From Neocallimastix lanati (nom. inval.) (Eukaryota; Neocallimastigomycota; Neocallimastigomycetes; Neocallimastigales; Neocallimastigaceae), in NCBI GenBank assembly GCA_016946835.1, contig JACVTC010000031.1, positions 1-42,500 of the forward strand: a stretch of 42,500 nucleotides of DNA. The letters run 5' to 3'. The notes beneath the pieces are model-generated. The model saw only the letters and a program-made list of their open reading frames with translations, was not told the origin of the DNA and searched no databases. Position numbers and translations under genes: made by a program. The number at the start of each line of letters is the position of its first letter. Within the stretch, counting starts at the first letter, position 1. Positions 9,690-42,500 of the stretch are shown here, piece by piece.

Positions 9690-10455
9690 GAAGATATAGA
9701 AATGAATAAAGATAATCAACAAAATAAAACTAATACTTTGGAAAAATTAATTTCAACAAAAACTAAAGAAACTAATAATGGAAATACTTAGTTAGTAAAG
9801 AGGAATATCAAAATGATGAATAATAAAGAACCTTACAATATAATGGATGATTTAAATAATCTTAAATCCAGTATTACGATAGGTCAACTCTTGAATACAT
9901 GTCCGAAAATTCGTTCACAATTAACTCAAGGCTTAAAGTTAGAAAAATCTAAAATAATTGGAACTGTAGACAATGTAATAAATGTAATAGCACGAACCTT
10001 ATTAGTAAATAACTATGATCATAGCTACATAAGTAAAAGTAATGAAGTAGCTGAAGAAGACTTAGCAATGGTTAATGTAAGTGTTGATGGAGTACTAGGA
10101 AATCTTTTAATTGATTCTTGTAGTAATCTTAGCATCGTTACTAAACAGTATTTTGATAAATTACCTGGTGAATATGAAACAGTTGGAAAAAGTCGTGGAA
10201 GAATCCAACTAGCAGCACAAAATGAAGAATACTCAGAAGGAATTGTTGTTCGATCACCAGTAAAAATTAATAATTATGAATTTAATGCAGACTTTAGAAT
10301 TATTGAAAAAGAAGATTCTTTTTATGATATGTTAATAAACTTTAAGACTCAAATCGATCATTGTTTATTTATTCATCCGACTTTAAACAGTTTATGTAAA
10401 CTTTTGTCAGAAAGTGAATGTGGTTTTCCTAGTATTATCGGGTGCTTTAGTGTTT
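9690..10455 (+). pseudogene. Retrotransposon gag end / aspartic protease (retropepsin-like) remnant
   Basis: A Lys/Asn-rich frame (about 9670-9790) ends in TAG. A second frame, open from 9813 to 10496, begins with a YNIMDDLNNLKSSITIGQLL block and continues to a retropepsin-like fold. There, NVSVDGVLGNLLIDSCSNLS corresponds to the active-site region, followed by SIVTKQYFDKLPG, a flap-like stretch, and YDMLINFKTQID. In retropepsins the catalytic triplet is D-S/T-G. Here it reads D-S-C, so this copy is probably inactive. The last 30 or so residues are hydrophobic read-through into AT-rich DNA. I infer a Ty3/gypsy family like that at 1-2.3 kb, but the two cannot be joined. Confidence 0.7.
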
Positions 10456-10587
10456 TTCTCTTTTTATCCATTTACTTTTGTTATAAATTTATTTAATTTA
10501 TATTAATGTATTCACTTAGTTAATATTTATCTAAATAATTATTGATCCATTCACTTATTTAAATTTATTTAGTTGATATCTATTTGT

Positions 10588-12931: not shown

Positions 12932-15079
12932 TTATTCATATTTTTCTATCTTTCTCCAAATCTTCTCTTCAGTTGGCATTTGGTAATAACTATTAATTTC
13001 TTGATACTTTTTCATATTAAAAAGTTCACCCGACTTTTTGTAATAAGCTTGTTTTTTGGCCTTTGTTTTTGCGTTATCCTTTAGAGTAAAAGGAATGACA
13101 TACGTAGAAAGAATACCTTGAAGTTTTTGTTCATATTCCTTAAATACTACAAGCAGACTGCGGTTTGATATTTGATTATTCTGAGGGTTTATCAAACACA
13201 CTTCCTTTTTTCCTTTTTCTCCGTAGGTAGTTTGCGGAATAACCAAAAATTCAGTAGGAACATTCAATATTTCGGAAACTTTGGCTATCGCCTCTTCTTC
13301 ATCTTTTTCACTATGTAGTTCTCCGATTATCTCTTTAATTCTTTTTTTTAAATCGAATTCATCTTCTTCTGACTCTTCTTCGCTTTCATCTGAGTCTTCT
13401 CTTAATATTCTTTCTCTCACCTTTTCTTTCCTCAATCCCTTTTGTTCATTTTTCTCTGACCATTTTCTTTCCTCCTGTTTTCCCACTAATTTCATGAGCT
13501 CATTTTTAAATGTTTCCATTAACCTATTTTGTCCTCCCATTTTTTCATATATTGATGACACTTCATGGTTTAAACCTTGCATCTGTCGGGATAAATCAGC
13601 AATTTGTAATTCCTGATCTTTTTTCTGCTGCTTCAGCTTTTCTTGCTGTTCTTTTTGTTGCCTTTCCCAAAAGGTCAGAAGATCATTATTTAAAGCTTCC
13701 GAAAATTGCTTCTGTTCAGACATTTTATTGTTTAAATCCTGAAGTTTTTGAACTAAATCACTAATCTGATCCGTACTTTTTCCATACACATGCTTAGTCA
13801 GATTATTGATTTTAGAATTCAATCCAGCAACATTGCTATTAGACTCTTCCAATGATTTATCTTGCTTCTCAATTCTTTCAAACACCGACGTCATTTTACC
13901 ATTAAGATCTTGTACTTGTCTGGTCATATCTGTACTTCCTCCATACACATCCTGTACTTGCTTAGTAAGATCAGTGATTTTGGAATTCAATCCGTCAACA
14001 TTATTATTAGATTCTTCCAATGATTTATCTTGCTTCTCAATTCTTTCAAACACCGACGTCATTTTACCATTAAGATCTTGTACTTGTCTGGTCATATCTG
14101 TACTTCCTCCATACACATCCTGTACTTGCTTAGTAAGATCAGTGATTTTGGAATTCAATCCGTCAACATTATTATTAGATTCTTCCAATGATTTATCTTG
14201 CTTCTCAATTCTTTCAAACATCGATATCATTTTACCATTAAGATCTTGTACTTGTCGAGTTATATCTGTACTTCCTCCATACACATCCTGTACTTGCTTA
14301 GTCAAATCAGTGATTTTGGAATTCAATCCGTCAACATTGTTATTGGACTCTTCCAATGATTTATCTTGCTTCTCAATTCTTTCAAACATTGACGTCATTT
14401 TACTGTTAATTTCTTGTACTTGTCTGGTCATATCTGTACTTCCTCCAAACACATCCTGTACTTGCTTTGTAAGATCAGTGATTTTAGAATTCAATCCGTC
14501 AACATTGTTATTGGACTCTTCCAATGATTGATCTTGTTTCTCAATTCTTTCAAACATCGATATCATTTTACCATTAAGATCTTGTACTTGTCTGGTCATA
14601 TCTGTACTTCCTCCATACACATCCTGTACTTGCTTAGTAAGATCAGTGATTTTGGAATTCAATCCGTCAACATTGTTATTGGACTCTTCCAATGATTTAT
14701 CTTGCTTCTCAATTCTTTCAAACATCGATATCATTTTACCATTAAGATCTTGTACTTGTCGAGTCATATCTGTACTTCCTCCATACACATCCTGTACTTG
14801 CTTAGTCAAATCAGTGATTTTGGAATTCAATCCGTCAACATTATTATTAGATTCTTCCAATGATAGATCTTGCTCCTCAATTCTTGCAAACATCGACATC
14901 ATTTTACCATTAAGATCTTGTACTTGCCGAGTCAACCAGTTAATTTGTGAACTTAAATTGGCAATCTGATTGTCTACTCCTTCTCCTAGACCTTCATTAT
15001 TTTCCACTGTGAGATTCGAGCTGTATTGTGACACTCTTTGACGAGTACTAAAATTATTATTATCCTTATCGAAATACAT
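12932..15079 (-). CDS. 715-aa coiled-coil protein with seven 56-residue repeats
   Basis: This is an intact frame from ATG (15077-15079) to stop. Residues 1-40 are polar. About residues 40-440 hold seven copies of a 56-residue unit (168 bp). The unit contains QDLNGKMxSMFERIEKQD, SLEESNNNVDGLNSKI, TDLTKQVQDVYGGSTDMTR, with heptad-like spacing of L/I/V/M as in coiled coils. A longer Gln/Lys-rich coiled coil follows (LQDLNNKMSE, then QQKEQQEKLKQQKKDQ), then a charged hinge (DSDESEEESEEDEFDL). The C-terminus is a non-repetitive domain of about 140 residues containing VPTEFLVIPQTTYGEKG and LLVVFKEYEQKLQGIL. There is no signal peptide and no membrane segment. I do not recognise the C-terminal domain, and an intracellular scaffold or structural role is only inference. 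Confidence 0.85.
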   Translation of the reverse strand: MYFDKDNNNFSTRQRVSQYSSNLTVENNEGLGEGVDNQIANLSSQINWLTRQVQDLNGKMMSMFARIEEQDLSLEESNNNVDGLNSKITDLTKQVQDVYGGSTDMTRQVQDLNGKMISMFERIEKQDKSLEESNNNVDGLNSKITDLTKQVQDVYGGSTDMTRQVQDLNGKMISMFERIEKQDQSLEESNNNVDGLNSKITDLTKQVQDVFGGSTDMTRQVQEINSKMTSMFERIEKQDKSLEESNNNVDGLNSKITDLTKQVQDVYGGSTDITRQVQDLNGKMISMFERIEKQDKSLEESNNNVDGLNSKITDLTKQVQDVYGGSTDMTRQVQDLNGKMTSVFERIEKQDKSLEESNNNVDGLNSKITDLTKQVQDVYGGSTDMTRQVQDLNGKMTSVFERIEKQDKSLEESNSNVAGLNSKINNLTKHVYGKSTDQISDLVQKLQDLNNKMSEQKQFSEALNNDLLTFWERQQKEQQEKLKQQKKDQELQIADLSRQMQGLNHEVSSIYEKMGGQNRLMETFKNELMKLVGKQEERKWSEKNEQKGLRKEKVRERILREDSDESEEESEEDEFDLKKRIKEIIGELHSEKDEEEAIAKVSEILNVPTEFLVIPQTTYGEKGKKEVCLINPQNNQISNRSLLVVFKEYEQKLQGILSTYVIPFTLKDNAKTKAKKQAYYKKSGELFNMKKYQEINSYYQMPTEEKIWRKIEKYE
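13780..14940 (-). repeat. 168-bp in-frame tandem repeats within the coiled-coil gene
   Basis: Boxes such as CTTCCTCCATACACATCCTG recur every 168 bp. Adjacent units differ by few bases. The third and sixth units share the same variants (MISMFERIEKQD), which is consistent with recent unequal exchange or conversion. Confidence 0.9.
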
Positions 15080-15084
15080 CCCAC

Positions 15085-15410
15085 TTTATTTTTTTTTTTA
15101 TTTAGATAATAAACATGAGAGTATATAAAGATTTTATTTTTTTTTTTATTCCGATAATAAACATGAAAGTATGTAAAGATTTTATTTTGTTTAATTTAAT
15201 TTATTTTTTTATTTAGATAATAAACATGAAAGTATATAAAGACTTTATTTAGATAATAAACATGAGAGTATATAAAGATTTTATTTTGTTTAATTTAATT
15301 TATTTTTTTATTTAGATAATAAACATGAAAGTATATAAATATTTTATTTTTTTTATTTAGATAATAAACATGAAAGTATATAAAGATTTTATTTTATTTT
15401 ATTTTTTGAT
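15085..15410. repeat. Tandem motif upstream of the coiled-coil gene
   Basis: Six copies of TTTAGATAATAAACATGAAA followed by GTATATAAAGATTTTATTTT lie directly upstream of the start codon. On the gene's strand each unit contains a TTTATATAC box, so the array may be its promoter region. Similar units lie near 11280-11370 and 11600, so it may instead be dispersed repeat sequence. Confidence 0.75.
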
Positions 15411-22152: not shown

Positions 22153-25100
22153 TTATTGTTCATCGGCAGAATCTTCAGCTTCTTCAATGTTGGCATCAAC
22201 TTCTTCAGCAGAATCAACTCCTTCATCGTTGGCTGGTTCAGCATCAACTTCTTCAGCTGATTGTTCAGCAGCTTCAGTTTGCTGTGGTTCTTCAGCATCA
22301 ACTTCTTCATCAGCTCCTTCAGTTACTTCTTCAATAACAGTAGTTGTAATGTATTCAGTAACTTCTTCTTCGTCGTCAAGGTAAATTACTTCATCATCAG
22401 AATCGCAGTCTTCAACAGAAGAAACGGTGTGATCTTCAGATGGAGTTTCTTCCTTAGCTGGAGTTTCATCTTCTTCCTTAGCTGGGGTTTCTTCCTTAGC
22501 TGGGGTTTCATCTTCTTCCTTAGCTGGATTTTCATCGTTAACGACTTCATCACCAGATTCACAGTCTTCTTCATTATCGACAGTGTATTCTTCTTCTTCA
22601 GCTGGGTTTTCCTTAACTGGAGCTTCTTCATCATTAGATTCTTCAGCCTTGTCATTAACATTTTCTGGAGCTTCAGTTTCTTCTTCAGCTGGGTTTTCCT
22701 TAGCTGGAGTTTCTTCCTTAGCTGGAGTTTCATCTTTAGCTGGAGTTTCTTCCTTAGCTGGAGTTTCATCTTTAGCTGGAGTTTCATCTTTAGCTGGAGT
22801 TTCTTCGTTAACGACTTCATCACCAGATTCACAGTCTTCTTCATTGTCGACAGTGTATTCTTCTTCTTCAGCTGGGTTTTCCTTAACTGGAGCTTCTTCA
22901 TCATTAGATTCTTCAGCCTTGTCATTAACATTTTCTGGAGCTTCAGTTTCTTCTTCAGCTGGGTTTTCCTTAGCTGGAGTTTCATCAGCTGGAGTTTCAT
23001 CAGCTGGAGTTTCTTCTGGAGTCTTAATGACTACTTCATCACCAGATTCACAGTCTTCTTCATTGTCGACAGTGTATTCTTCTTCTTCAGCTGGGTTTTC
23101 TTTAGCTGGAGCTTCTTCATCATTAGATTCTTCAGCCTTGTCATTAACATTTTCTGGAGCTTCAGTTTCTTCTTCAGCAGATTCTTCAGCAGCTGGGTTT
23201 TCCTTAGCTGGAGTTTCTTCAGCTGGGTTTTCTTCCTTAGCTGGAGTTTCTTCAGCTGGGTTTTCTTCCTTAGCTGGAGTTTCGTCAGCTGGTTTTTCTT
23301 CAACATCAGAATTTTCAGCAACTGGGTTTTCTTCCTTAGCTGGAGTTTCGTCAGCTGGAGTTTCTTCCTTAGCTGGAGTCTTAATGACTACTTCATCACC
23401 AGATTCACAGTCTTCTTCATTGTCGACAGTGTATTCTTCTTCTTCAGCTGGGTTTTCCTTAGCTGGAGCTTCTTCATCATTAGATTCTTCAGCCTTATCA
23501 TTAACATTTTCTGGAGCTTCAGTTTCTTCTTCAGCAGATTCTTCAGCAGCTGGGTTTTCCTTAGCTGGGGTCTCATCAGCTGGGTTTTCTTCCTTAGCTG
23601 GAGTCTTAATGACTACTTCATCACCAAATTCACAGTCTTCTTCATTACTGACGGTGTATTCTTCAGCTGGAGTTTCATCATCTGGAGTTTCTTCCTTAGC
23701 TGGAGTCTTAATGACTACTTCATCACCAGATTCACAGTCTTCTTCATTGTCGACAGTGTATTCTTCTTCTTCAGCTGGGTTTTCTTTAGCTGGAGCTTCT
23801 TCATCATTAGATTCTTCAGCCTTGTCATTAACATTTTCTGGAGCTTCAGTTTCTTCTTCAGCTGGGTTTTCCTTAGCTGGAGTTTCATCAGCTGGAGTTT
23901 CTTCATCATTAGATTCTTCAGCAGCTGGGTTTTCCTTAGCTGGAGTTTCCTTAGCTGGAGCTTCTTCATCATTAGATTCTTCATCAGCTGGGTTTTCCTT
24001 AGCTGGGGTTTCCTTTGATGGAGTTTCCTTAGCTGGAGCTTCTTCATCATTAGATTCTTCAGCAGCTGGGTTTTCCTTAGCTGGGGTTTCCTTTGATGGA
24101 GTTTCCTTAGCTGGAGCTTCTTCATCATTAGATTCTTCAGCAGCTGGGTTTTCCTTAGCTGGGGTTTCCTTTGATGGAGTTTCCTTAGCTGGAGCTTCTT
24201 CATCATTAGATTCTTCAGCAGCTGGGTTTTCCTTAGCTGGGGTTTCCTTTGATGGAGTTTCCTTAGCTGGAGCTTCTTCATCATTAGATTCTTCAGCAGC
24301 TGGGTTTTCCTTAGCTGGAGTTTCCTTAGCTGGAGCTTCTTCATCATTAGATTCTTCAGCAGCTGGGTTTTCCTTAGCTGGAGTTTCCTTAGCTGGAGCT
24401 TCTTCATCATTAGATTCTTCAGCAGCTGGGTTTTCCTTAGCTGGAGTTTCTTCCTTAGCTGGGGCTTCATCACCAGAATCTTCAACATTTTCAAGGGCTG
24501 GAGCTTCAGTGCCTTCTTCATTTTCAGAATTTTGTCCTTCAACTGGAGCTTCATTAACATCTTCTTCTTCTTCAGCTGGATTTTCTTCCTTGGCTGGAGT
24601 TTCTTCATTAGCTGGAGCATCTTCATCCTCTGAACCTAAACCAAGAGCATCTTTGATAGTGTCAATAACTTCTTCAACACCATCAACGATCTTTTCTGGA
24701 ATAGTTTTGTTTTCATCTTCAGCAGATGAATCTTCGGTATCTTCTAATTTTTTGGCTGGAACATCTTCAGAAGAAGATTGTTCATCAGCGACATCACTTG
24801 GTTCAGCAGCTTCAGTATTGTCTTCTTCATCATCATCAGCATCATCCTCATCACCTAATTCATTAGTTGGATTTTCTTCTTCACCATCTTCAATTAATGA
24901 AGTTTCTTCTTCAGAATCATCTTCCTCTACATTATCAGCACCTTCTGTAGTATCTGGAACTTCTTCTTCATTAGAATCTTCATTATTTTCTAATACTGGT
25001 AATTCTGGAACATTGTTTTCTTCAGCAGAAAGTTCTGCTTCAGTTTTATCTAAAACATTTTCTGGAGCAGTAACTTCATCAGCTGAAGCTTCAGCAATGT

Positions 25101-25194
25101 CTGAAACTTCATTAGCATTTGGAATTGGTGAAGCCATAACCATCATAGCGTAAGCAATGAAGGAAAGTAAGATATGTAAGTTCTTAATTTGCAT
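22153..25194 (-). CDS. 1013-aa secreted, extremely acidic repeat protein
   Basis: This is an intact frame from ATG (25192-25194). Residues 1-22 (start MQIKNLHILLSFIAYAM) look like a cleavable signal peptide. The rest is dominated by E, D, A, P, N and T, with very few aromatic residues. Residues of about 25-225 are non-repetitive and acidic. The centre is an array of units such as AEESNDEEAPAK and ETPAKENPA. The last 500 or so residues alternate ETEAPENVNDKAEESNDEEA with EEYTVDNEEDCESGDEVV. The only seven cysteines are one per YTVxNEEDC-type module, the last degenerate (HTVSSVEDCDSDDEV). I see no GPI-type or membrane C-terminus. An extracellular or cell-wall role is inferred from the signal peptide. 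I recognise no family. Confidence 0.9.
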   Translation of the reverse strand: MQIKNLHILLSFIAYAMMVMASPIPNANEVSDIAEASADEVTAPENVLDKTEAELSAEENNVPELPVLENNEDSNEEEVPDTTEGADNVEEDDSEEETSLIEDGEEENPTNELGDEDDADDDEEDNTEAAEPSDVADEQSSSEDVPAKKLEDTEDSSAEDENKTIPEKIVDGVEEVIDTIKDALGLGSEDEDAPANEETPAKEENPAEEEEDVNEAPVEGQNSENEEGTEAPALENVEDSGDEAPAKEETPAKENPAAEESNDEEAPAKETPAKENPAAEESNDEEAPAKETPAKENPAAEESNDEEAPAKETPSKETPAKENPAAEESNDEEAPAKETPSKETPAKENPAAEESNDEEAPAKETPSKETPAKENPAAEESNDEEAPAKETPSKETPAKENPADEESNDEEAPAKETPAKENPAAEESNDEETPADETPAKENPAEEETEAPENVNDKAEESNDEEAPAKENPAEEEEYTVDNEEDCESGDEVVIKTPAKEETPDDETPAEEYTVSNEEDCEFGDEVVIKTPAKEENPADETPAKENPAAEESAEEETEAPENVNDKAEESNDEEAPAKENPAEEEEYTVDNEEDCESGDEVVIKTPAKEETPADETPAKEENPVAENSDVEEKPADETPAKEENPAEETPAKEENPAEETPAKENPAAEESAEEETEAPENVNDKAEESNDEEAPAKENPAEEEEYTVDNEEDCESGDEVVIKTPEETPADETPADETPAKENPAEEETEAPENVNDKAEESNDEEAPVKENPAEEEEYTVDNEEDCESGDEVVNEETPAKDETPAKDETPAKEETPAKDETPAKEETPAKENPAEEETEAPENVNDKAEESNDEEAPVKENPAEEEEYTVDNEEDCESGDEVVNDENPAKEEDETPAKEETPAKEEDETPAKEETPSEDHTVSSVEDCDSDDEVIYLDDEEEVTEYITTTVIEEVTEGADEEVDAEEPQQTEAAEQSAEEVDAEPANDEGVDSAEEVDANIEEAEDSADEQ
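22440..24450 (-). repeat. In-frame minisatellite inside the acidic secreted gene
   Basis: Units such as CTTAGCTGGAGTTTC and GATTCTTCAGCAGCTGGGTT (plus strand) recur throughout. Four consecutive, almost identical units carrying TTTGATGGAGTTTCC lie at about 24000-24270. Long frames on the opposite strand are by-products of the repeat. Confidence 0.9.
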
Positions 25195-26292
25195 GATGAA
25201 TATTAAAATCTATATTAAAACTTTAAATTAAAAAAAGGTATATGTATAATTAAATTAAGATGTTAAATTCTATATTTTATATTATTAAAAGGTTTATTCC
25301 TTTCAATTAATTTATTTGTTTGTTTTTTTTTAAGTTTTTATTTTCTATTATTTTAACAAAACCGTGATATATATATATAATTTCTATAGTTTATAAATTA
25401 TATATATATATATTCTAAATAAAATAGAATAACTTTTTTTTTATTTTTTTTTTATAATTTTTTATATATGGAATATTGAAAAAAAAAGAAATAAAAGATT
25501 TTTTTTTTCTTTTATACCATTTTTAAATAAATAAATAAAAATAATAATAATTAAATTTTAAAAGAAAAATTATATTTAATATATTATTTAATATATTATT
25601 TAATATATTATTATATATAAACATATAATATTATAATATAAATTTAATATAAGATTTGATATATTTAATATAATTTAATTGGTTAATTTTTCTTGTAATG
25701 AAAAAAAATATATTGCTTTAATAAATTATTTATATTTATTATTATTGATATTTTATTTATATTTATTGTTATTGATATTTTATCCTATAAAAATTACAAG
25801 TAAATATTAATATTAATAAAAATTTATATTTAAAAATTATAATAAAAATTAAATAAAAATTATTATAATAATAAAAATTAATATTACAATATTAATAAAA
25901 ATGATAATAATAATAAATATTAATAAAAATTAATATTTAAAAATTATAATAATAAATATTAATATTTATAAAAATTAATATTTAAAAATTATAATAATAA
26001 ATATTAATATTTATAAAAATTAATATTTAAAAATTATAATAATAATAAATATTAATATTTATAAAAATTATAATAAAGATTATAATATAAATTATAATAA
26101 AAATTATAATAAATATTAATAATAAATATTAATAATTTTTAATAATTAATTATTTTATATAAATACATGTTTAAATTCTTTTGATTAATCCTTTGTAGGA
26201 TTATTGTAATTTAAATTATAGTAATAATTATATAAAATAATAATGTAATAAAATATTATTAAAATTAAATAAAATTTATATTTTAAACAAAA
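25195..26292. other. AT-rich spacer upstream of the acidic gene
   Basis: A poly-purine and TATA-rich stretch immediately precedes the start codon. From 25850 to 26110 there are short repeats of AATAAATATTAATATTTATA and AAAATTAATATTTAAAAATT. No gene is visible. Confidence 0.55.
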
Positions 26293-26912: not shown

Positions 26913-27993
26913 ATTATTATTTATTATTTATTATTCCATTATTTATTATTTATTATTTATTAATAAATACTCTTTTCATTATTTAATTACTCAATTATTA
27001 TTTATTAATATATATTATTTCATTATTTCATTATTTATTATTTATTATTTATTATTTATTATTTATTATTTATTATTTATTATTTCATTATTTATTATTT
27101 ATTATTTATTATTTATTATTTATTATTTATTATTTATTATTTATTATTTATTATTTATTATTTATTATTTATTATTTATTATTTATTATTTATTATTTAT
27201 TATTTATTATTTATTATTTATTATTTATTATTTATTATTTATTATTTATTATTTATTATTTATTATTTATTATTTATTATTTATTATTTATTATTTATTA
27301 TTTATTATTTATTATTTATTATTTATTATTTATTATTTATTATTTATTATTTATTATTTATTATTTATTATTTATTATTTATTATTTATTATTTATTATT
27401 TATTATTTATTATTTATTATTTATTATTTATTATTTATTATTTATTATTTATTATTTATTATTTATTATTTATTATTTATTATTTATTATTTATTATTAA
27501 TTATATTATTTATTATTTATTATTTATATTGTTATTATTTATTATTTATTATTTATATTGTTATTATTTATTATTTATTATTTATTATTTATTATTTATT
27601 ATTTATTATATTATTTATTATTTATTATTTATTATTTATTAATAAATACTCTATTTATTATTTATTATTTATAATTTATTATTTATTATTTATTATTTAT
27701 TATTTATTAATAAATACTCTATTATTTATTATTTATTATTTATTATTTATTATTTATTAATAAATACTCTATTATTTATTATTTATGATTTATTATTTAT
27801 GATTTATTATTTATGATTTATGATTTATTATTTATTATTTATTATTTGTTATTTATTATTTATTATTTATTATTCAATTATTTATTATTCAATTATTTAT
27901 TATTTATTATTTATTATTTATTATTTATTATTTATTATTTATTATTTATTATTTATTATTTATTATTTATTATTTATTATTTATTATTTATTC
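26913..27993 (-). repeat. Heptanucleotide array (TTTATTA)n of about 1.1 kb
   Basis: There are roughly 150 units, long stretches of them perfect, with interspersed variants including TTAATAAATACTCT repeated near 26960, 27640, 27705 and 27760. It is the reverse complement of the motif at 16.4 kb. Frames across it are artefacts. Confidence 0.95.
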
Positions 27994-28017
27994 AATTATT
28001 AGTTTATTATTATTTTT

Positions 28018-35912: not shown

Positions 35913-37004
35913 TTACCAACATCTACCATAACGGGATTGACATCCAGAACTCCTTCTACAGTATTTTGAAGATGTACCACAGTAACCATACTTACTACAG
36001 CATTCACCATGAGGACATCTACCAAACCTTCCACCACATCTTCCATTATTAAATCTTCCTCCAGCTCTTCTAGTAGTGGTCCTAGTAATGGTCTTCCTAA
36101 CATTACAGTTTCCAAATTCTGATTGACAGCCTTCACTTACGTTACAATATTTACTAGAGGTTCCACACCAACCATATTTACTACAACATTCACCTTCTGG
36201 ACATTTTCCAAATATACTACCACATCTTCCATTAGTACTAATAACTTCATTACATTTACCAAATTCTGATTGACAACCTGCTCCACAATACTTTTCACTC
36301 TTTCCACACCAACCATATTTACTACAGCAGTATCCTTCAGCACATTTACCATAACCTTCACCACATCTGTCAGTATTTCCTTCATTTACTTCAGGTTCAC
36401 CTTGACAAGTACCAAACTTAGATTGGCAACCATTATCTACCTTACAGTATTTATCAGACTTTCCACACCAGCCATATTTACTACAGCAGTATCCTTCAGC
36501 ACAGCTACCATAACCTTCACCACATCTGTCAGTATTTCCTTCATTTACTTCAGGTTCACCTTGACAAGTACCAAACTTAGATTGGCAACCATTATCTACC
36601 TTACAGTATTTATCAGACTTTCCACACCAGCCATATTTACTACAGCAGTATCCTTCAGCACATTTACCATAACCTTCACCACATCTATCAGTATTTCCTT
36701 CATTTACTTCAGGTTTACTTTGACAAGTACCATACTTAGATTGGCAACCATTATCTACCTTACAGTATTTATCAGACTTTCCACACCAGCCATATTTACT
36801 ACAGCAGTATCCTTCAGCACAGCTACCAAAACCTTCACCACATCTATCAGTATTTCCTTCATTTACTTCAGGTTCACCTTGACAAGTACCAAACTTAGAT
36901 TGGCAACCATTTTCTATCTTACAATATTTATCAGATTTTCCACACCAACCATACTTACTACAACAGTATCCTTCAGCACAGCTACCAATTCCTTCACCAC
37001 ATCT
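35913..37004 (-). other. Seven CBM18 (hevein-type) chitin-binding domains
   Basis: Each domain has the pattern RCG-x4-C-x4-CCSKYGWCG-x5-YC-x(2-5)-GCQS-x3-C, the eight-cysteine hevein fold. The aromatic residues of the chitin site (Y/W in KYGWCG and Y in KYC) are present in all seven. The last domain has YGYCG instead of YGWCG. The first four domains repeat with a 159-bp (53-residue) period and a QGEPEVNEGNTD-type spacer. The fifth is shorter (KYCGAGCQS). The sixth and seventh diverge (FGKCPEGECC, FGRCPHGECC) and are separated by a basic Arg/Thr-rich stretch. The protein ends YGRCW. Confidence 0.92.
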
Positions 37005-40000
37005 CCATGGATCTTGAGTTGGTTGTGCTCCACTTTCAGTTGATTGTACACCTCTTTCTGTTGTTTGTGTTTCACTTTCTGTTGGTTGTGAACCAGTTTC
37101 TGTTGGTTGTGAACCTGTTTCTGTTGTTTGTGAACCAGTTTCTGTTGTTTGTGTTTCACTTTCTGTTGTTTGTGAACCAGTTTCTGTTGTTCGTGAACCT
37201 GTTTCTGTTGTTCGTGAACCTGTTTCTGTTGTTTGTGAACCTGTTTCTGTTGTTTGTGAACCAGTTTCTGTTGTTTGTGAACCTGTTTCTGTTGTTTGTG
37301 AACCAGTTTCTGTTGTTTGTGTTTCACTTTCTGTTGGTTGTGAACCAGTTTCTGTTGTTTGTGTTTCACTTTCTGTTGTTTGTGAACCAGTTTCTGTTGT
37401 TTGCGTTTCACTTTCTGTTGTTTGTGAACCAGTTTCTGTTGTTTGTGAACCAGTTTCTGTTGGTTGTGAACCAGTTTCTGTTGTTTGTGAACCAGTTTCT
37501 GTTGTTTGTGAACCAGTTTCTGTTGTTTGCGTTTCACTTTCTGTTGGTTGTGAACCAGTTTCTGTTGTTTGTGAACCAGTTTCTGTTGTTTGTGAACCTG
37601 TTTCTGTTGTTTGTGTTTCACTTTCTGTTGTTTGTGAACCTGTTTCTGTTGTTTGTGAACCTGTTTCTGTTGTTTGTGTTTCACTTTCTTTTGGTTGTGA
37701 ACCAGTTTCTGTTGTTTGTGTTTCACTTTCTGTTGGTTGTGAACCTGTTTCTGTTGTTTGTGAACCTGTTTCTGTTGTTTGTGAACCAGTTTCTGTTGTT
37801 TGTGTTTCACTTTCTGTTGGTTGTGAACCAGTTTCTGTTGTTTGTGTTTCACTTTCTGTTGTTTGTGAACCAGTTTCTGTTGTTTGTGAACCTGTTTCTG
37901 TTGTTTGTGAACCAGTTTCTGTTGGTTGTGAACCAGTTTCTGTTGTTTGTGAACCAGTTTCTGTTGTTTGTGAACCAGTTTCTGTTGTTTGTGTTTCACT
38001 TTCTGTTGGTTGTGAACCAGTTTCTGTTGTTTGTGAACCAGTTTCTGTTGTTTGTGAACCTGTTTCTGTTGTTTGTGTTTCACTTTCTGTTGTTTGTGAA
38101 CCAGTTTCTGTTGTTTGTGTTTCACTTTCTGTTGGTTGTGAACCTGTTTCTGTTGTTTGTGAACCAGTTTCTGTTGTTTGTGTTTCACTTTCTGTTGTTT
38201 GTGAACCAGTTTCTGTTGTTTGTGAACCAGTTTCTGTTGGTTGTGAACCTGTTTCTATTGGTTCTTGATTTTCTTCTTCTTCTTCATTTTCTTCTTCATT
38301 ATTTTCTTCTTCTTTTCCATTTTCATTTTCTTCTTCATCATTCTCTTCATTATTTTCTTCTTCTTTTCCATTTTCATTTTCTTCTTCATCATTCTCTTCA
38401 TCATTTTCTTCTTCATCATTCTCTTCTTCTTCATCATTTTCTTCTTCATTATTTTCTTCTTCTTTTCCATTTTCATTTTCTTCTTCATCATTCTCTTCAT
38501 CATTCTCTTCTTCATCATTTTCTTCTTCTTCATCATTTTCTTCTTCATCATTCTCTTCTTCATTTTCTTCTTCTTCATCATTCTCTTCTTCTTCATCATT
38601 TTCTTCTTCTTCATCATTTTCTTCTTCATCATTTTCTTTTTCATTATTTTCTTCTTCATTATTTTCTTCTTCATCATTTTCTTCTTCATCATTTTCTTCT
38701 TCTTCATCATTCTCTTCTTCATCATTTTCTTCTTCATTATTTTCTTCTTCATCATTTTCTTCTTCATCATTTTCTTCTTCATCATTTTCTTCTTCATCAT
38801 TTTCTTCTTCATCATTTTCTTCTTCATCATCATTTTCTTCTTCATCATTTTCTTCTTCATTTTCTTCTTCTTCATCATTCTCTTCTTCATTTTCTTCTTC
38901 TTCATCATTCTCTTCATCATTATTTTCTTCTTCAACATTTTCTTCTTCATCATTTTCTTCTTCATTATTTTCTTCTTCATCATTCTCTTCTTCATCATTC
39001 TCTTCTTCATCATTCTCTTCTTCATCATTCTCTTCTTCATCATTTTCTTCTTCTAATTCAATATCTCTTTCTTCCGCTTCAATTGCTTCTTCTTCATTTT
39101 CTTCTTCTTCATTCTCTTCTTCATCATTCTCTTCATCATTTTCTTCTTCATCATTCTCTTCTTCATCATTTTCCTCTTCATCATTCTCTTCATCATTTTC
39201 TTCTTCTTCATTACAACCAACACATTCTTCTTCTTCATTCTCTTCTTCATTATTTTCTTCTTCATCATTCTCTTCTTCATCATTCTCTTCTTCATCATTC
39301 TCTTCTTCATCATTTTCTTCTTCATCATTTTCTTCTTCATCATTTTCTTCTTCTTCATTTTCTTCTTCTTCATTTTCTTCTTCATCATTCTCTTCTTCAT
39401 TTTCTTCTTCTTCATCATTTTCTTCTTCATCATTTTCTTCTTCATCATTTTCTTCTTCATCATTTTCTTCTTCTTCATCATTCTCTTCTTCATCATTTTC
39501 TTCTTCTTCATCATTTTCTTCTTCATCATTTTCTTCTTCTTCATCATTTTCTTCTTCTTCATCATTCTCTTCTTCATCATTTTCTTCTTCTTCATTTTCT
39601 TCTTCATCATTTTCTTCTTCATCATTTTCTTCTTCATCATCATTTTCTTCTTCATCGTCATTTTCTTCTTCATCATTTTCTTCTTCTTCATCATTTTCTT
39701 CTTCTTCATTACAACCAACACATTCTTCTTCTTCATTCTCTTCTTCATTATTTTCTTCTTCATCATTCTCTTCTTCATCATTCTCTTCTTCATCATTCTC
39801 TTCTTCATCATTTTCTTCTTCATCATTTTCTTCTTCATCATTTTCTTCTTCTTCATTTTCTTCTTCTTCATTTTCTTCTTCATCATTCTCTTCTTCATTT
39901 TCTTCTTCTTCATCATTTTCTTCTTCATCATTTTCTTCTTCATCATTTTCTTCTTCATCATTTTCTTCTTCTTCATCATTCTCTTCTTCATCATTTTCTT

Positions 40001-42500
40001 CTTCTTCATCATTTTCTTCTTCATCATTTTCTTCTTCTTCATCATTTTCTTCTTCTTCATCATTCTCTTCTTCATCATTTTCTTCTTCTTCATTTTCTTC
40101 TTCATCATTTTCTTCTTCATCATTTTCTTCTTCATCATCATTTTCTTCTTCATCGTCATTTTCTTCTTCATCATTTTCTTCTTCTTCATCATTTTCTTCT
40201 TCTTCATTACAACCAACACATTCTTCTTCTTCATTCTCTTCTTCATTATTTTCTTCTTCATCATTCTCTTCTTCATCATTCTCTTCTTCATCATTTTCTT
40301 CTTCATCATTTTCTTCTTCATCATTTTCTTCTTCATCATTTTCTTCTTCATCATTTTCTTCTTCTTCATCATTCTCTTCTTCATCATTTTCTTCTTCTTC
40401 ATCATTTTCTTCTTCATCATTTTCTTCTTCTTCATCATTTTCTTCTTCTTCATCATTCTCTTCTTCATCATCCTCTTCTTCATCATTTTCTTCTTCATCA
40501 TTTTCTTCTTCATCATTTTCTTCTTCATCATTTTCTTCTTCATTTTCTTCTTCTTCATTATTTTCTTCTTCATCATTTTCTTCTTCATCATTTTCTTCTT
40601 CATCATTTTCTTCTTCATCATTTTCTTCTTCATCATTTTCTTCTTCATCATTTTCTTCTTCTTCATCATTCTCTTCTTCTTCTTCTTCTTCTTCTTCATC
40701 ATTCTCTTCTTCATCATTTTCTTCTTCATCATTTTCTTCTTCTTCATTTTCTTCTTCATCATTTTCTTCTTCATCATTTTCTTCTTCATCATTTTCTTCT
40801 TCATCATTTTCTTCTTCATCATTTTCTTCTTCATCATCATTTTCTTCTTCATCATCATTTTCTTCTTCATCATTTTCTTCTTCATCATCATTTTCTTCTT
40901 CATCATTTTCTTCTTCTTCATCATTTTCTTCTTCTTCATTACAACCAACACATTCTTCTTCTTCATTCTCTTCTTCATTATTTTCTTCTTCATCATTTTC
41001 TTCTTCATCATTTTCTTCTTCTTCATCATTCTCTTCTTCATCATTTTCTTCTTCTTCATCATTTTCTTCTTCATCATTTTCTTCTTCTTCATCATTTTCT
41101 TCTTCTTCATCATTCTCTTCTTCATCATTCTCTTCTTCATCATTTTCTTCTTCATCATTTTCTTCTTCATCATTTTCTTCTTCATCATTTTCTTCTTCTT
41201 CATCATTCTCTTCTTCTTCTTCTTCTTCTTCTTCATCATTTTCTTCTTCATCATTTTCTTCTTCATCGTTTTCTTCTTCTTCATCATTCTCTTCTTCATT
41301 ATTTTCTTCTTCATCATTCTCTTCTTCATTTTCTTCTTCTTCATCATTTTCTTCTTCATCATTTTCTTCTTCATCATTCTCTTCATCATTCTCTTCTTCA
41401 TCATTTTCTTCTTCTTCATCATTTTCTTCTTCATCATTTTCTTCTTCTTCATTATTTTCTTCTTCATCATTTTCTTCTTCATCATTTTCTTCTTCATCGT
41501 TTTCTTCTTCTTCATCATTCTCTTCTTCATCATTTTCTTCTTCATCATTTTCTTCTTCATCATTTTCTTCTTCTTCATCATTCTCTTCTTCATCATTCTC
41601 TTCTTCATCATTTTCTTCTTCTTCATCATTTTCTTCTTCTTCATCATTTTCTTCTTCATCATTCTCTTCTTCATCATTTTCTTCTTCTTCATTATTTTCT
41701 TCTTCATCATTTTCTTCTTCATCATTTTCTTCTTCATCGTTTTCTTCTTCTTCATCATTCTCTTCTTCATCATTTTCTTCTTCATCATTTTCTTCTTCAT
41801 CATTTTCTTCTTCTTCATCATTCTCTTCTTCATCATTCTCTTCTTCATCATTTTCTTCTTCTTCATCATTTTCTTCTTCTTCATCATTTTCTTCTTCATC
41901 ATTCTCTTCTTCATCATTTTCTTCTTCATCATTTTCTTCTTCATCATTTTCTTCTTCATCATTCTCTTCTTCATTTTCTTCTTCTTCATTATTTTCTTCT
42001 TCATCGTTTTCTTCTTCTTCATTTTCTTCTTCTTCATTTTCTTCTTCATCATCATTCTCTTCTTCATTATTTTCTTCTTCATCATTCTCTTCTTCATTTT
42101 CTTCTTCTTCATCATTTTCATCTTCATCATTTTCTTCTTCATCATTCTCTTCATCATTCTCTTCTTCATCATTTTCTTCTTCTTCATCATTTTCTTCTTC
42201 ATCATTTTCTTCTTCTTCATTATTTTCTTCTTCATTATTTTCTTCTTCATCATTCTCTTCTTCATCATTTTCTTCTTCATCATTCTCTTCTTCATCATTC
42301 TCTTCTTCATCATTTTCTTCTTCTTCATCATTTTCTTCTTCATCATTCTCTTCTTCATTTTCTTCTTCTTCATCATTCTCTTCTTCTTCATCATTTTCTT
42401 CTTCTTCATCATTTTCTTCTTCATCATTTTCTTCTTCATTATTTTCTTCTTCATTATTTTCTTCTTCATCATTTTCTTCTTCATCATTTTCTTCTTCTTC
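35913..42500 (-). CDS. Giant acidic protein with C-terminal chitin-binding (CBM18) array, 5' end outside window
   Basis: One reading frame (minus-strand codons whose lowest plus-strand base is a multiple of three) is open from the right edge to a TAA at 35913-35915. It gives at least 2195 codons. The N-terminal part in view (42500 to about 38265) is over 1400 residues of E, D and N, with only an AIEAEERDIELE island and four CVGC motifs. Next come about 410 residues of a Thr/Ser/Glu/Gly/Gln linker (units TTETGSQ, PTESETQ), then seven CBM18 domains. CBM18 binds chitin or chito-oligosaccharides, so I infer a cell-wall or secreted protein with a glycosylated linker. The frame lacks Met, so ATG-based ORF finding shows only off-frame Lys/Met or Phe/Ile shadows. 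The signal peptide and start lie beyond 42500. Confidence 0.85.
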   Translation of the reverse strand, partial: EEEENDEEENDEEENNEEENNEEENDEEENDEEEENDEEEENDEEEENEEENDEEENDEEEENDEEENDEEENDEEENDEEENDEEENNEEENNEEEENDEEENDEEEENDEEENDEENDEEENDEDENDEEEENEEENDEEENNEEENDDEEENEEEENEEEENDEEENNEEEENEEENDEEENDEEENDEEENDEEENDEEENDEEEENDEEEENDEEENDEEENDEEEENDEEENDEEENDEEENDEEEENDEEENDEEENDEEENNEEEENDEEENDEEENDEEEENDEEEENDEEENDEEENDEEEENDEEENDEEENDEEENDEEEENDEEENDEEENDEEENNEEEENDEEENDEEEENDEEENDEENDEEENDEEENDEEEENEEENDEEENNEEENDEEEENDEEENDEEENDEEEEEEEEENDEEEENDEEENDEEENDEEENDEEENDEEENDEEEENDEEEENDEEENDEEEENDEEENDEEEENDEEENDEEENNEEENEEEECVGCNEEEENDEEEENDEEENDDEEENDEEENDDEEENDDEEENDEEENDEEENDEEENDEEENDEEENEEEENDEEENDEEENDEEEEEEEEENDEEEENDEEENDEEENDEEENDEEENDEEENDEEENNEEEENEEENDEEENDEEENDEEENDEEEDDEEENDEEEENDEEEENDEEENDEEEENDEEENDEEEENDEEENDEEENDEEENDEEENDEEENDEEENDEEENNEEENEEEECVGCNEEEENDEEEENDEEENDDEEENDDEEENDEEENDEEENEEEENDEEENDEEEENDEEEENDEEENDEEEENDEEENDEEEENDEEENDEEENDEEENDEEEENEEENDEEENEEEENEEEENDEEENDEEENDEEENDEEENDEEENDEEENNEEENEEEECVGCNEEEENDEEEENDEEENDDEEENDDEEENDEEENDEEENEEEENDEEENDEEEENDEEEENDEEENDEEEENDEEENDEEEENDEEENDEEENDEEENDEEEENEEENDEEENEEEENEEEENDEEENDEEENDEEENDEEENDEEENDEEENNEEENEEEECVGCNEEEENDEENDEEENDEEENDEEENDEENDEEENEEEENEEEAIEAEERDIELEEENDEEENDEEENDEEENDEEENDEEENNEEENDEEENVEEENNDEENDEEEENEEENDEEEENEEENDEEENDDEEENDEEENDEEENDEEENDEEENDEEENNEEENDEEENDEEEENDEEENDEEENNEEENNEKENDEEENDEEEENDEEEENDEEEENEEENDEEENDEEEENDEEENDEENDEEENENGKEEENNEEENDEEEENDEEENDEENDEEENENGKEEENNEENDEEENENGKEEENNEEENEEEEENQEPIETGSQPTETGSQTTETGSQTTESETQTTETGSQTTETGSQPTESETQTTETGSQTTESETQTTETGSQTTETGSQTTETGSQPTESETQTTETGSQTTETGSQTTETGSQPTETGSQTTETGSQTTETGSQTTESETQTTETGSQPTESETQTTETGSQTTETGSQTTETGSQPTESETQTTETGSQPKESETQTTETGSQTTETGSQTTESETQTTETGSQTTETGSQTTETGSQPTESETQTTETGSQTTETGSQTTETGSQPTETGSQTTETGSQTTESETQTTETGSQTTESETQTTETGSQPTESETQTTETGSQTTETGSQTTETGSQTTETGSQTTETGSRTTETGSRTTETGSQTTESETQTTETGSQTTETGSQPTETGSQPTESETQTTERGVQSTESGAQPTQDPWRCGEGIGSCAEGYCCSKYGWCGKSDKYCKIENGCQSKFGTCQGEPEVNEGNTDRCGEGFGSCAEGYCCSKYGWCGKSDKYCKVDNGCQSKYGTCQSKPEVNEGNTDRCGEGYGKCAEGYCCSKYGWCGKSDKYCKVDNGCQSKFGTCQGEPEVNEGNTDRCGEGYGSCAEGYCCSKYGWCGKSDKYCKVDNGCQSKFGTCQGEPEVNEGNTDRCGEGYGKCAEGYCCSKYGWCGKSEKYCGAGCQSEFGKCNEVISTNGRCGSIFGKCPEGECCSKYGWCGTSSKYCNVSEGCQSEFGNCNVRKTITRTTTRRAGGRFNNGRCGGRFGRCPHGECCSKYGYCGTSSKYCRRSSGCQSRYGRCW
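37005..38262 (-). repeat. 21-bp-based repeat encoding a Thr/Ser/Glu/Gln linker
   Basis: The plus strand repeats GTTTGTGAACCAGTTTCTGTT with variants GTTTGTGTTTCACTTTCTGTT and GGTTGTGAACC. In the gene's frame this gives TTETGSQ, TTESETQ and PTETGSQ heptads, roughly 58 of them. The Thr/Ser content fits an O-glycosylated spacer, by analogy with fungal wall proteins. Only silent and conservative variants are seen. Confidence 0.9.
39225..40220 (-). repeat. 498-bp in-frame tandem duplication in the acidic tract
   Basis: CVGC codons at 39711-39722 and 40209-40220 are exactly 498 bp apart, and so are those at 39213 and 39711. The sequences following each appear identical over the several hundred bases compared by eye. 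Confidence 0.88.
41461..41930 (-). repeat. 240-bp in-frame tandem duplication in the acidic tract
   Basis: The 60-base blocks starting 41461, 41521 and 41581 equal those starting 41701, 41761 and 41821. The match fades near 41928. Confidence 0.9.

Follow-up and report, generated by a model that had tools for sequence, protein, structure and literature searches.

The micro-exon genes (MEGs) of Schistosoma, 72 in 25 families, consist mainly of exons of 36 bp or less and carry signal peptides (PMC8293314; this paper and those below are cited from excerpts). Aphid bicycle genes, which encode putative secreted effectors, have many tiny internal exons, nearly all of one phase, and the megacycle gene of M. 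sacchari uses 118 exons for 2092 amino acids (PMC9168663). Exons of 3 nt are spliced in mouse Ncam and Drosophila TnT (PMC8042270). Exons of 1 nt occur in APC11 and VPS55 of plants, and a rice transcript has two microexons, of 5 and 12 nt, next to each other (PMC8831610). At recursive splice sites an adjacent acceptor and donor, AG|GT, are used stepwise (PMC13149111). Our search of the open-licence literature found no report of dozens of 3-nt exons arrayed in series, or of microexons in anaerobic fungi.

Yeast flocculins and adhesins are built from a head, a long repetitive stalk and a C-terminal wall anchor. CBM18 modules bind chitin in other proteins, which is established for the family.

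Here we describe a gene whose 3′ part lies in the window, the whole stretch of 42,500 nt analyzed, from the anaerobic fungus Neocallimastix lanati. The best explanation, to which we give a probability of roughly 70%, is a gene in which an array of micro-exons leads into a giant acidic CBM18 exon, and whose protein would be a wall-anchored adhesin or polyanionic brush.

The giant exon and its paralogs

As the original prediction held, the minus strand from 42500 to 35913 is a single open frame of 2195 codons, ending in TAA at 35915–35913. It is predicted to be the last exon of a gene for a secreted-looking protein. The 2195 residues contain no methionine, so an in-frame ATG is absent from the window part of the exon. 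The opposite strand is likewise open in the repeat frames of this exon, as expected of a repeat based on 3 nt; with both strands open, openness alone is weak evidence for the frame. The strand is instead assigned from the CBM18 modules and the paralogs. On the contig (C235), 5000 N at 42501–47500 adjoin the window end, and the 5′ start of the giant exon sits inside this N stretch. Upstream of the window there is no simple continuation of the frame; the gene resumes past the N stretch as many small exons. The warning that ATG-based gene finders would miss or misframe the gene was well placed. The most unusual part is the 5′ side of the tract, where the gene is divided into dozens of small exons, over half of which measure 3 nt in the window gene.

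The proposed architecture, a D/E/N tract joined to a Thr-rich linker and a CBM18 array, was recovered with lengths of 1411, 417 and 367 aa. The acidic tract occupies 38268–42500 (minus strand) and comprises 875 E, 287 N and 219 D, giving a net charge of about −1089. GAA, GAG, GAT, GAC, AAT and AAC make up 97.9% of its codons in frame 0 and 0.6% and 4.8% in the alternative frames; in each of the 14 segments of 300 nt along the tract, frame 0 is the best. The DNA is a tandem repeat with a 15/33-bp unit. Four CVGC islands, candidate disulfide sites, lie inside the tract on the same strand at 40941–40952, 40209–40220, 39711–39722 and 39213–39224.

The linker, at 37017–38267 (minus strand), is mucin-like and rich in Thr, Ser, Glu and Gln, with TTETGSQ and TTESETQ heptads encoded by a 21-bp unit in 59.2 copies (TRF). 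From 37016 down to the stop at 35913, the same strand encodes seven CBM18 modules. The PF00187 profile matches seven stretches of the frame with E 3.5e-47 and 158.8 bits, well above the curated cut-off of 27.8, in agreement with the CBM18 array first suggested. The CCSKYG[WY]CG cores begin at 36965, 36806, 36647, 36488, 36329, 36188 and 36002. In the same genome the profile matched all 150 candidates scored (150 of 1081), many of them in frames of 500–2200 codons.

Elsewhere in the window, the minus strand at 22153–25209 encodes a second secreted-looking acidic repeat protein, 1013 aa from MQIKNLHILLSFIAYAMMVMASP, with 38% D+E and EAPAKENPAEE-type repeats; its only Pfam match is to HC2 and is sub-threshold. 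A 717-codon frame at 12932–15085 (minus strand) is built of a repeated coiled-coil-like unit (EESNNNVDGLNSKITDLTKQVQDV...) and matches 48 Pfam families at E ≤ 0.01, many of them coiled-coil. On the plus strand, the frames at 1666–2274 and 9792–10496 resemble retroelement integrase and protease fragments by eye, and a Pfam search of the two returned nothing at E ≤ 0.01. The GC content is 1.9% at 27001–28000, a stretch of low complexity to judge by its frames, which read LLFIIYY repeatedly.

The genome (199 Mb, 762 contigs) was scanned for the family. A DNA pattern for ECVGCNEEE had 26 matches on seven contigs, and the reversed pattern had none. Seven loci share the same order of parts: a giant frame with an acidic tract, a Thr/Ser linker, six to seven CBM18 modules and a stop. 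The genome carries at least six further loci like the window gene, three of them near-identical. Their giant frames have 4901 (C104), 5109 (C268), 3796 (C643), 2057 (C445), 1624 (C571) and 1981 (C621) codons, and that of the window copy (C235) has 2195 in view. The CBM18 tails of the six are 93–100% identical to one another, and that of the window copy is 70–71% identical to them. The tails of C445, C571 and C621 are identical and were counted as near copies. The frames of C571 and C621 begin after a TGA with GAA-rich sequence just upstream; with the TGA inside the tract, each of these loci seems to carry a frame break, which is absent from C445. All three sit near the end of a contig: the C445 copy some 4 kb from its start, the C621 copy some 5 kb from its end, and the C571 copy on a contig of 15 kb. 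This suggests subtelomeric copies or assembly duplicates.

The acidic tract ranges from 1411 residues (window copy, cut by the N stretch) to 4485 across the loci, lengths that depend on assembly through long low-complexity repeats. This range, together with the short period of the tandem repeat, would fit a tract without function of its own, largely a runaway GAA/GAT/AAT repeat that a secreted CBM18 protein tolerates, so that only the CBM18 modules and the head matter. However, the frame is kept throughout the window tract, and both the CVGC-type islands and the E/D/N bias recur in all seven loci. We consider a merely tolerated repeat unlikely.

Arrays of 3-nt exons upstream of the tract

The regions upstream of the seven loci, that of C235 past the N stretch among them, can be aligned (part of the alignment was inspected). 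These regions contain tandem units of about 135 bp; in C445, TRF reports a 135-bp unit in 50.8 copies and a 404-bp unit in 15.6 copies. The typical unit reads ...AAATAG, three variable bases and then GTAAGTATAAATA, giving a 3-nt exon the context AG|NNN|GTAAGTA. On the sense strand of the seven regions, 112 of 128 pairs of [CT]AG and GT[AG]AGT found within 40 nt are spaced by 3 nt, and the antisense strand of the same regions has no such pair.

A splice-site matrix, trained on these same arrays, gave 15 matches of length 3 in C235, 16 in C643, 18 in C104, 22 in C268, 23 in C571 and 57 in C445. C621, whose contig ends 1.8 kb upstream, gave none. Other sense-strand candidates are fewer. The commonest length among them, 7 nt, can result from a second GT within GTAAGT. 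Antisense candidates of any length number 0–2 per region, and base-shuffled controls (three regions, five shuffles each) had 0.2–0.6 matches per shuffle. Genome-wide, with gaps of 0–30 allowed, all 48 strict acceptor-donor pairs have a gap of 3; they lie on 11 contigs, many are mutual duplicates (19 in C445 alone), and the search skips very common words. The reversed control of this pattern had 0 forward and 2 reverse matches.

Six further places were also examined, C351 and C431 being left out. The six hold nine 3-nt units on C112, eleven on C90, five on C135, eight at C104:7.5–10 kb, ten at C643:717–719 kb and one on C31. The nine units on C112 (L038, C112:491501–496500, at 1441–2636) are followed by unrelated sequence and form a truncated array. 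Those on C90 (L040, C90:1466501–1469000) are spaced by 134–269 bp. The second place on C104 (L042, C104:7501–10000) is a second family member on this contig, with a 21-nt exon and TTGGAACGGATG near-identical to those of the main C104 gene, and the ten units at the second place on C643 (L043, C643:716501–719500) are on the minus strand.

The frame-blind matrix lists were read for stops at the exon junctions. Phase 2 has 2–30 per locus and phase 0 has one (TAG, C268). Phase 1 has one each in C104 and C268, both falling where a 12-nt exon separates two listed units, and none in the other four loci. When the unit order was shuffled, phase 1 had 0.46–1.41 stops on average and 17–59% of the shuffles were stop-free. 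The counts exclude phase 2 and leave phase 0 and phase 1 undivided. The assignment to phase 1 therefore depends on three things: the longer exons, a TAG unit common to C104 and C268, and the protein P0022 (see below).

These arrays could in principle be a non-coding satellite in one or more long introns, in which the AG-NNN-GT spacing is inherited and the 3 nt never enter the mRNA. The units are tandem duplicates, so their common spacing is partly inherited, and repeats of ATG-ATT-TTG in C445 reflect recent duplication. The unit order, moreover, is not significantly poorer in phase-1 stops than the shuffled order of the frame-blind lists. A satellite does not sit well, however, with a 3-nt spacing that is constant while the unit lengths vary, or with a GC content of 0.23–0.52 in the 3-nt slots against 0.07–0.09 in the flanks beside them. 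P0022 bears on the same question more directly.

Full gene models, curated by hand with phase 1 as guide, cover C104, the window gene, C268 and C445 and leave out C643, C571 and C621. The small exons between array and tract were exposed by aligning C104 with C268, and the start was placed by comparing C104 with C235 by eye. In the window gene, 34 small exons, of which 18 measure 3 nt, precede the N stretch; they run from a start codon at C235:54267 to a last small exon ending at 47560. C104 has 41 small exons, 22 of 3 nt; their coding sequence totals 445 nt, is spread over about 8.2 kb and reads MLLKYFRILYIILFQEFLINFVKAQNFEEVCSAG... into EEEE. C268 has 67, of which 47 are of 3 nt and one of 6 nt, with 520 nt of coding sequence over about 12 kb from a start at C268:229297. 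C445 has 80, 61 of 3 nt, and is stop-free with a run of DDF repeats.

The four models are phase-consistent and without stops, and in all of them most exons are tiny and symmetric. From the third exon onward every length is a multiple of 3 nt, and the first base of each junction codon comes from the preceding exon. From there on the introns split a codon after its first base, so that a 3-nt exon contributes a single residue without shifting the frame.

A hydrophobic start is encoded by the first two exons; it ends in VKA, by eye a plausible signal peptidase site. The start exons of the window-gene and C104 models read MIFKYFSILIIILSQEFLTKFVKA and MLLKYFRILYIILFQEFLINFVKA, signal-peptide-like by eye. 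The start codon and signal peptide that were to be sought by extending the contig are placed past the N stretch, with MIFKYFSILIIILSQEFLTKFVKA, found by paralog comparison, as the candidate signal peptide of the window gene. Compared with each other, the N-termini predicted for C104 and for the window gene show 45% identity.

Several other starts and models were rejected. A gene start just past the N stretch at ATGAAAAAAGAATTTAATA was discarded, as homologous exons go further upstream to the conserved start at C235:54267. The C104 ATG opening METNSFFLFF has no usable in-frame donor that we could see, and the neighboring ATGCTACTGAAATATTTTAG is common to other loci and fits P0022. A scripted scan for signal-peptide exons gave one C104 candidate, which lies inside the array and was set aside. 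An automatic splice chain found most 3-nt exons, missed weak or larger ones and made some doubtful placements, and was not kept as the final model.

The window copy might be a decaying paralog, the relic of a family with other working members. The divergence of its CBM18 tail from the others points that way, as does the N stretch, which is expected from the C104 model to hide exons together with the tract start. Other copies also look broken, namely the truncated array on C112 and the frames of C571 and C621 that begin after TGA. Yet the window gene has its 34 exons with a candidate signal peptide, a consistent phase and no stop, followed by 2195 open codons. We judge decay to be improbable and the copy to be presumably expressed, as a gene of the micro-exon type proposed above.

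P0022, a relative of the array without introns

The predicted N-termini of C104 and the window gene were used together as the query for a spliced relative. Of 36 candidates one scored, P0022, a protein of 248 residues on a contig of 1132 nt, with E 3.6e-51. Aligned with the C268 model, P0022 agrees at 174 of 179 positions and has one residue more. One of the five mismatches is an end effect of the cut points. C268 reads HGRGW where P0022 has HGIGGW; the other differences are N/K and, in the later part, S/T. Among the residues of the C268 model whose last two bases lie in a 3-nt exon, 45 of 47 are matched.

The C268 exons extend over about 12 kb, and a contig of 1132 nt therefore cannot contain the introns. 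The match to the 67-exon model shows that the C268-type array is spliced and read in frame. P0022 could come from RNA or from an intronless copy, and in both cases the introns have been removed. For the array of the window gene, splicing is predicted by homology with P0022. By carrying these residues in order, P0022 contradicts a satellite whose 3 nt never reach the mRNA, in the case of the C268 type, and we regard that explanation as very improbable. The arrays are thus taken as coding micro-exons.

Before P0022 was known, the automatic chain on C268, bound to phase 1 without stops, read ASLRSNGRGPCVRGPYNKSVELIFGTD, where P0022 has ASLRNCNGRGPCVRGPYKKSVELIFGTD. At one place the chain gave S for the NC of P0022, and several exons escaped it. 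In the C268 model, ACT and CTATTA entered as exons once P0022 was known, and AAG by homology with C104, so these three have weaker support than the rest.

P0022 passes from a Cys-rich N-terminus directly into EEEENEEENEEEE. This argues against a transcript that starts near 38.2 kb and omits the acidic tract, an outcome that the original prediction had named as contrary to it; for the window gene the argument is by homology. P0022 ends inside the acidic tract, and the joining of tract to CBM18 modules in a transcript is predicted from the genomic frame. A Pfam search of P0022 gave no match in the N-terminal part, the best hit having E 1.2 and lying in the acidic part. The idea of an LRR or other known domain as the N-terminus, taken from CBM18-bearing LRR proteins, was rejected on this ground. 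An AlphaFold2 model of P0022 was poor (pLDDT 47.9) and was set aside. A search for longer relatives matched none of 63 candidates.

The proposed protein and its relation to known systems

In the explanation that we favor, the mRNA would begin with two signal-peptide exons and a few small Cys-rich exons, followed by the tandem array, in which some 20 to 60 exons, each exactly 3 nt long, alternate with introns mostly of about 130 nt. More Cys-rich small exons would follow the array and lead into the giant exon with its acidic tract, linker and CBM18 modules. The arrays would grow and shrink by tandem duplication or loss of a unit made of a 3-nt exon and an intron, each event adding or removing one residue. 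Such turnover of whole units is suggested by near-identical units in series and three-unit repeats in C445, and by the additional residue of P0022 relative to C268. Where a unit loses one of its splice signals, a longer intron appears to absorb it; C445 has a unit whose donor GT reads AT within a 408-nt intron. This suggests that coding sequence may grow by tandem duplication of an intron together with one codon.

The C-terminal CBM18 modules would hold chitin and serve as the wall anchor. The linker and the polyanion of 1400–4500 residues may form an extended, hydrated, cation-binding stalk, since an acidic chain of 1411 to 4485 residues is unlikely to fold compactly owing to its charge. The CVGC cysteines might cross-link stalks by disulfides between chains. 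A Cys-rich head with a changeable segment would stand at the far end of the stalk. The order of the parts fits that of a fungal wall adhesin, with a candidate signal (by eye), a repetitive stalk and a putative CBM18 anchor at the C-terminus. The head segment spelled by the 3-nt exons differs strongly in length and sequence between paralogs. More conserved residues follow it, SVELVFGTD, SVELIFGTD and, in C643, SVGEIFGED, which are partly coded by 3-nt exons.

The protein could instead act solely as a secreted, chitin-bound polyanion, an ion or water reservoir or a charge shield without any ligand-binding head. The net charge, already large in the window and −3527 in C268, would suit such a coat. 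However, the four modeled genes all retain a Cys-rich domain at the N-terminus, variable in one segment, which is beyond the needs of a simple coat, and we hold a headless coat to be possible though rather doubtful. For the adhesin with a head, a further and equally tentative proposal is that the array is a codon-by-codon generator of diversity. Each unit of the satellite-like repeat would supply one amino acid, and duplication, loss or skipping of units, always neutral for the frame, would remodel the exposed head one residue at a time. This would happen within populations and, through alternative splicing, possibly inside a single cell. If so, the change between HGRGW in C268 and HGIGGW in P0022 would be one such step.

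The locus bears on the minimum size of an exon and on the number that can be spliced in one gene, as an intron-free sequence matches 47 exons of 3 nt except at two residues. Standard gene finders and read mappers will probably overlook 3-nt exons; the N-termini of this family, and perhaps of other genes in AT-rich genomes, may therefore be absent or wrong in annotations. The loci also define a family of secreted-looking polyanions, with a testable role at the fungal wall, in which a single open exon can reach about 5100 codons.

Among described proteins, the nearest in the C-terminal part are the CBM18-bearing proteins of anaerobic fungi. Of 20 matches to the CBM18 tail, three are named as proteins of Neocallimastix, one of Piromyces and one of Anaeromyces. 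Seven of the 20 were read, two of them named Neocallimastix proteins. The CBM18 modules are C-terminal in six of the seven, following Thr-rich stretches in five, and N-terminal in P0008. Their other parts are LRR or other domains, and the giant acidic tract is present in none of these seven. The proposed order of head, stalk and wall anchor is shared with the yeast flocculins. The present protein differs from them in its polyanionic stalk, in a CBM18 anchor in place of a GPI signal, and in a head without Pfam match.

With respect to splicing, recursive sites retain zero nucleotides in the account cited (PMC13149111), whereas here each site contributes 3 nt to the product, as seen in P0022. All 48 strict pairs are spaced by 3 nt, and P0022 retains the codons, which sets these sites apart from zero-nucleotide recursive sites. 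Known microexons occur singly or a few per gene in the excerpts of PMC8042270 and PMC8831610, against 20–60 in series here. The internal exons of aphid bicycle genes start at codon position 2, as do those here from the third exon on (PMC9168663). The megacycle gene of M. sacchari has about 53 nt per exon, compared with 3 nt in the present arrays. CBM18 modules or a polyanion are not mentioned in the excerpt of PMC9168663, and the likeness is one of exon structure alone.

The Schistosoma MEGs are alike in encoding secreted or surface proteins in numerous short exons, symmetric ones whose removal leaves the frame intact (PMC8293314, as excerpted). Here the arrays are made of 3-nt exons, dozens in series within a tandem DNA repeat, they are followed by a giant acidic CBM18 exon, and they occur in a different phylum. 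We accordingly call the predicted family micro-exon genes by structure, not by descent.
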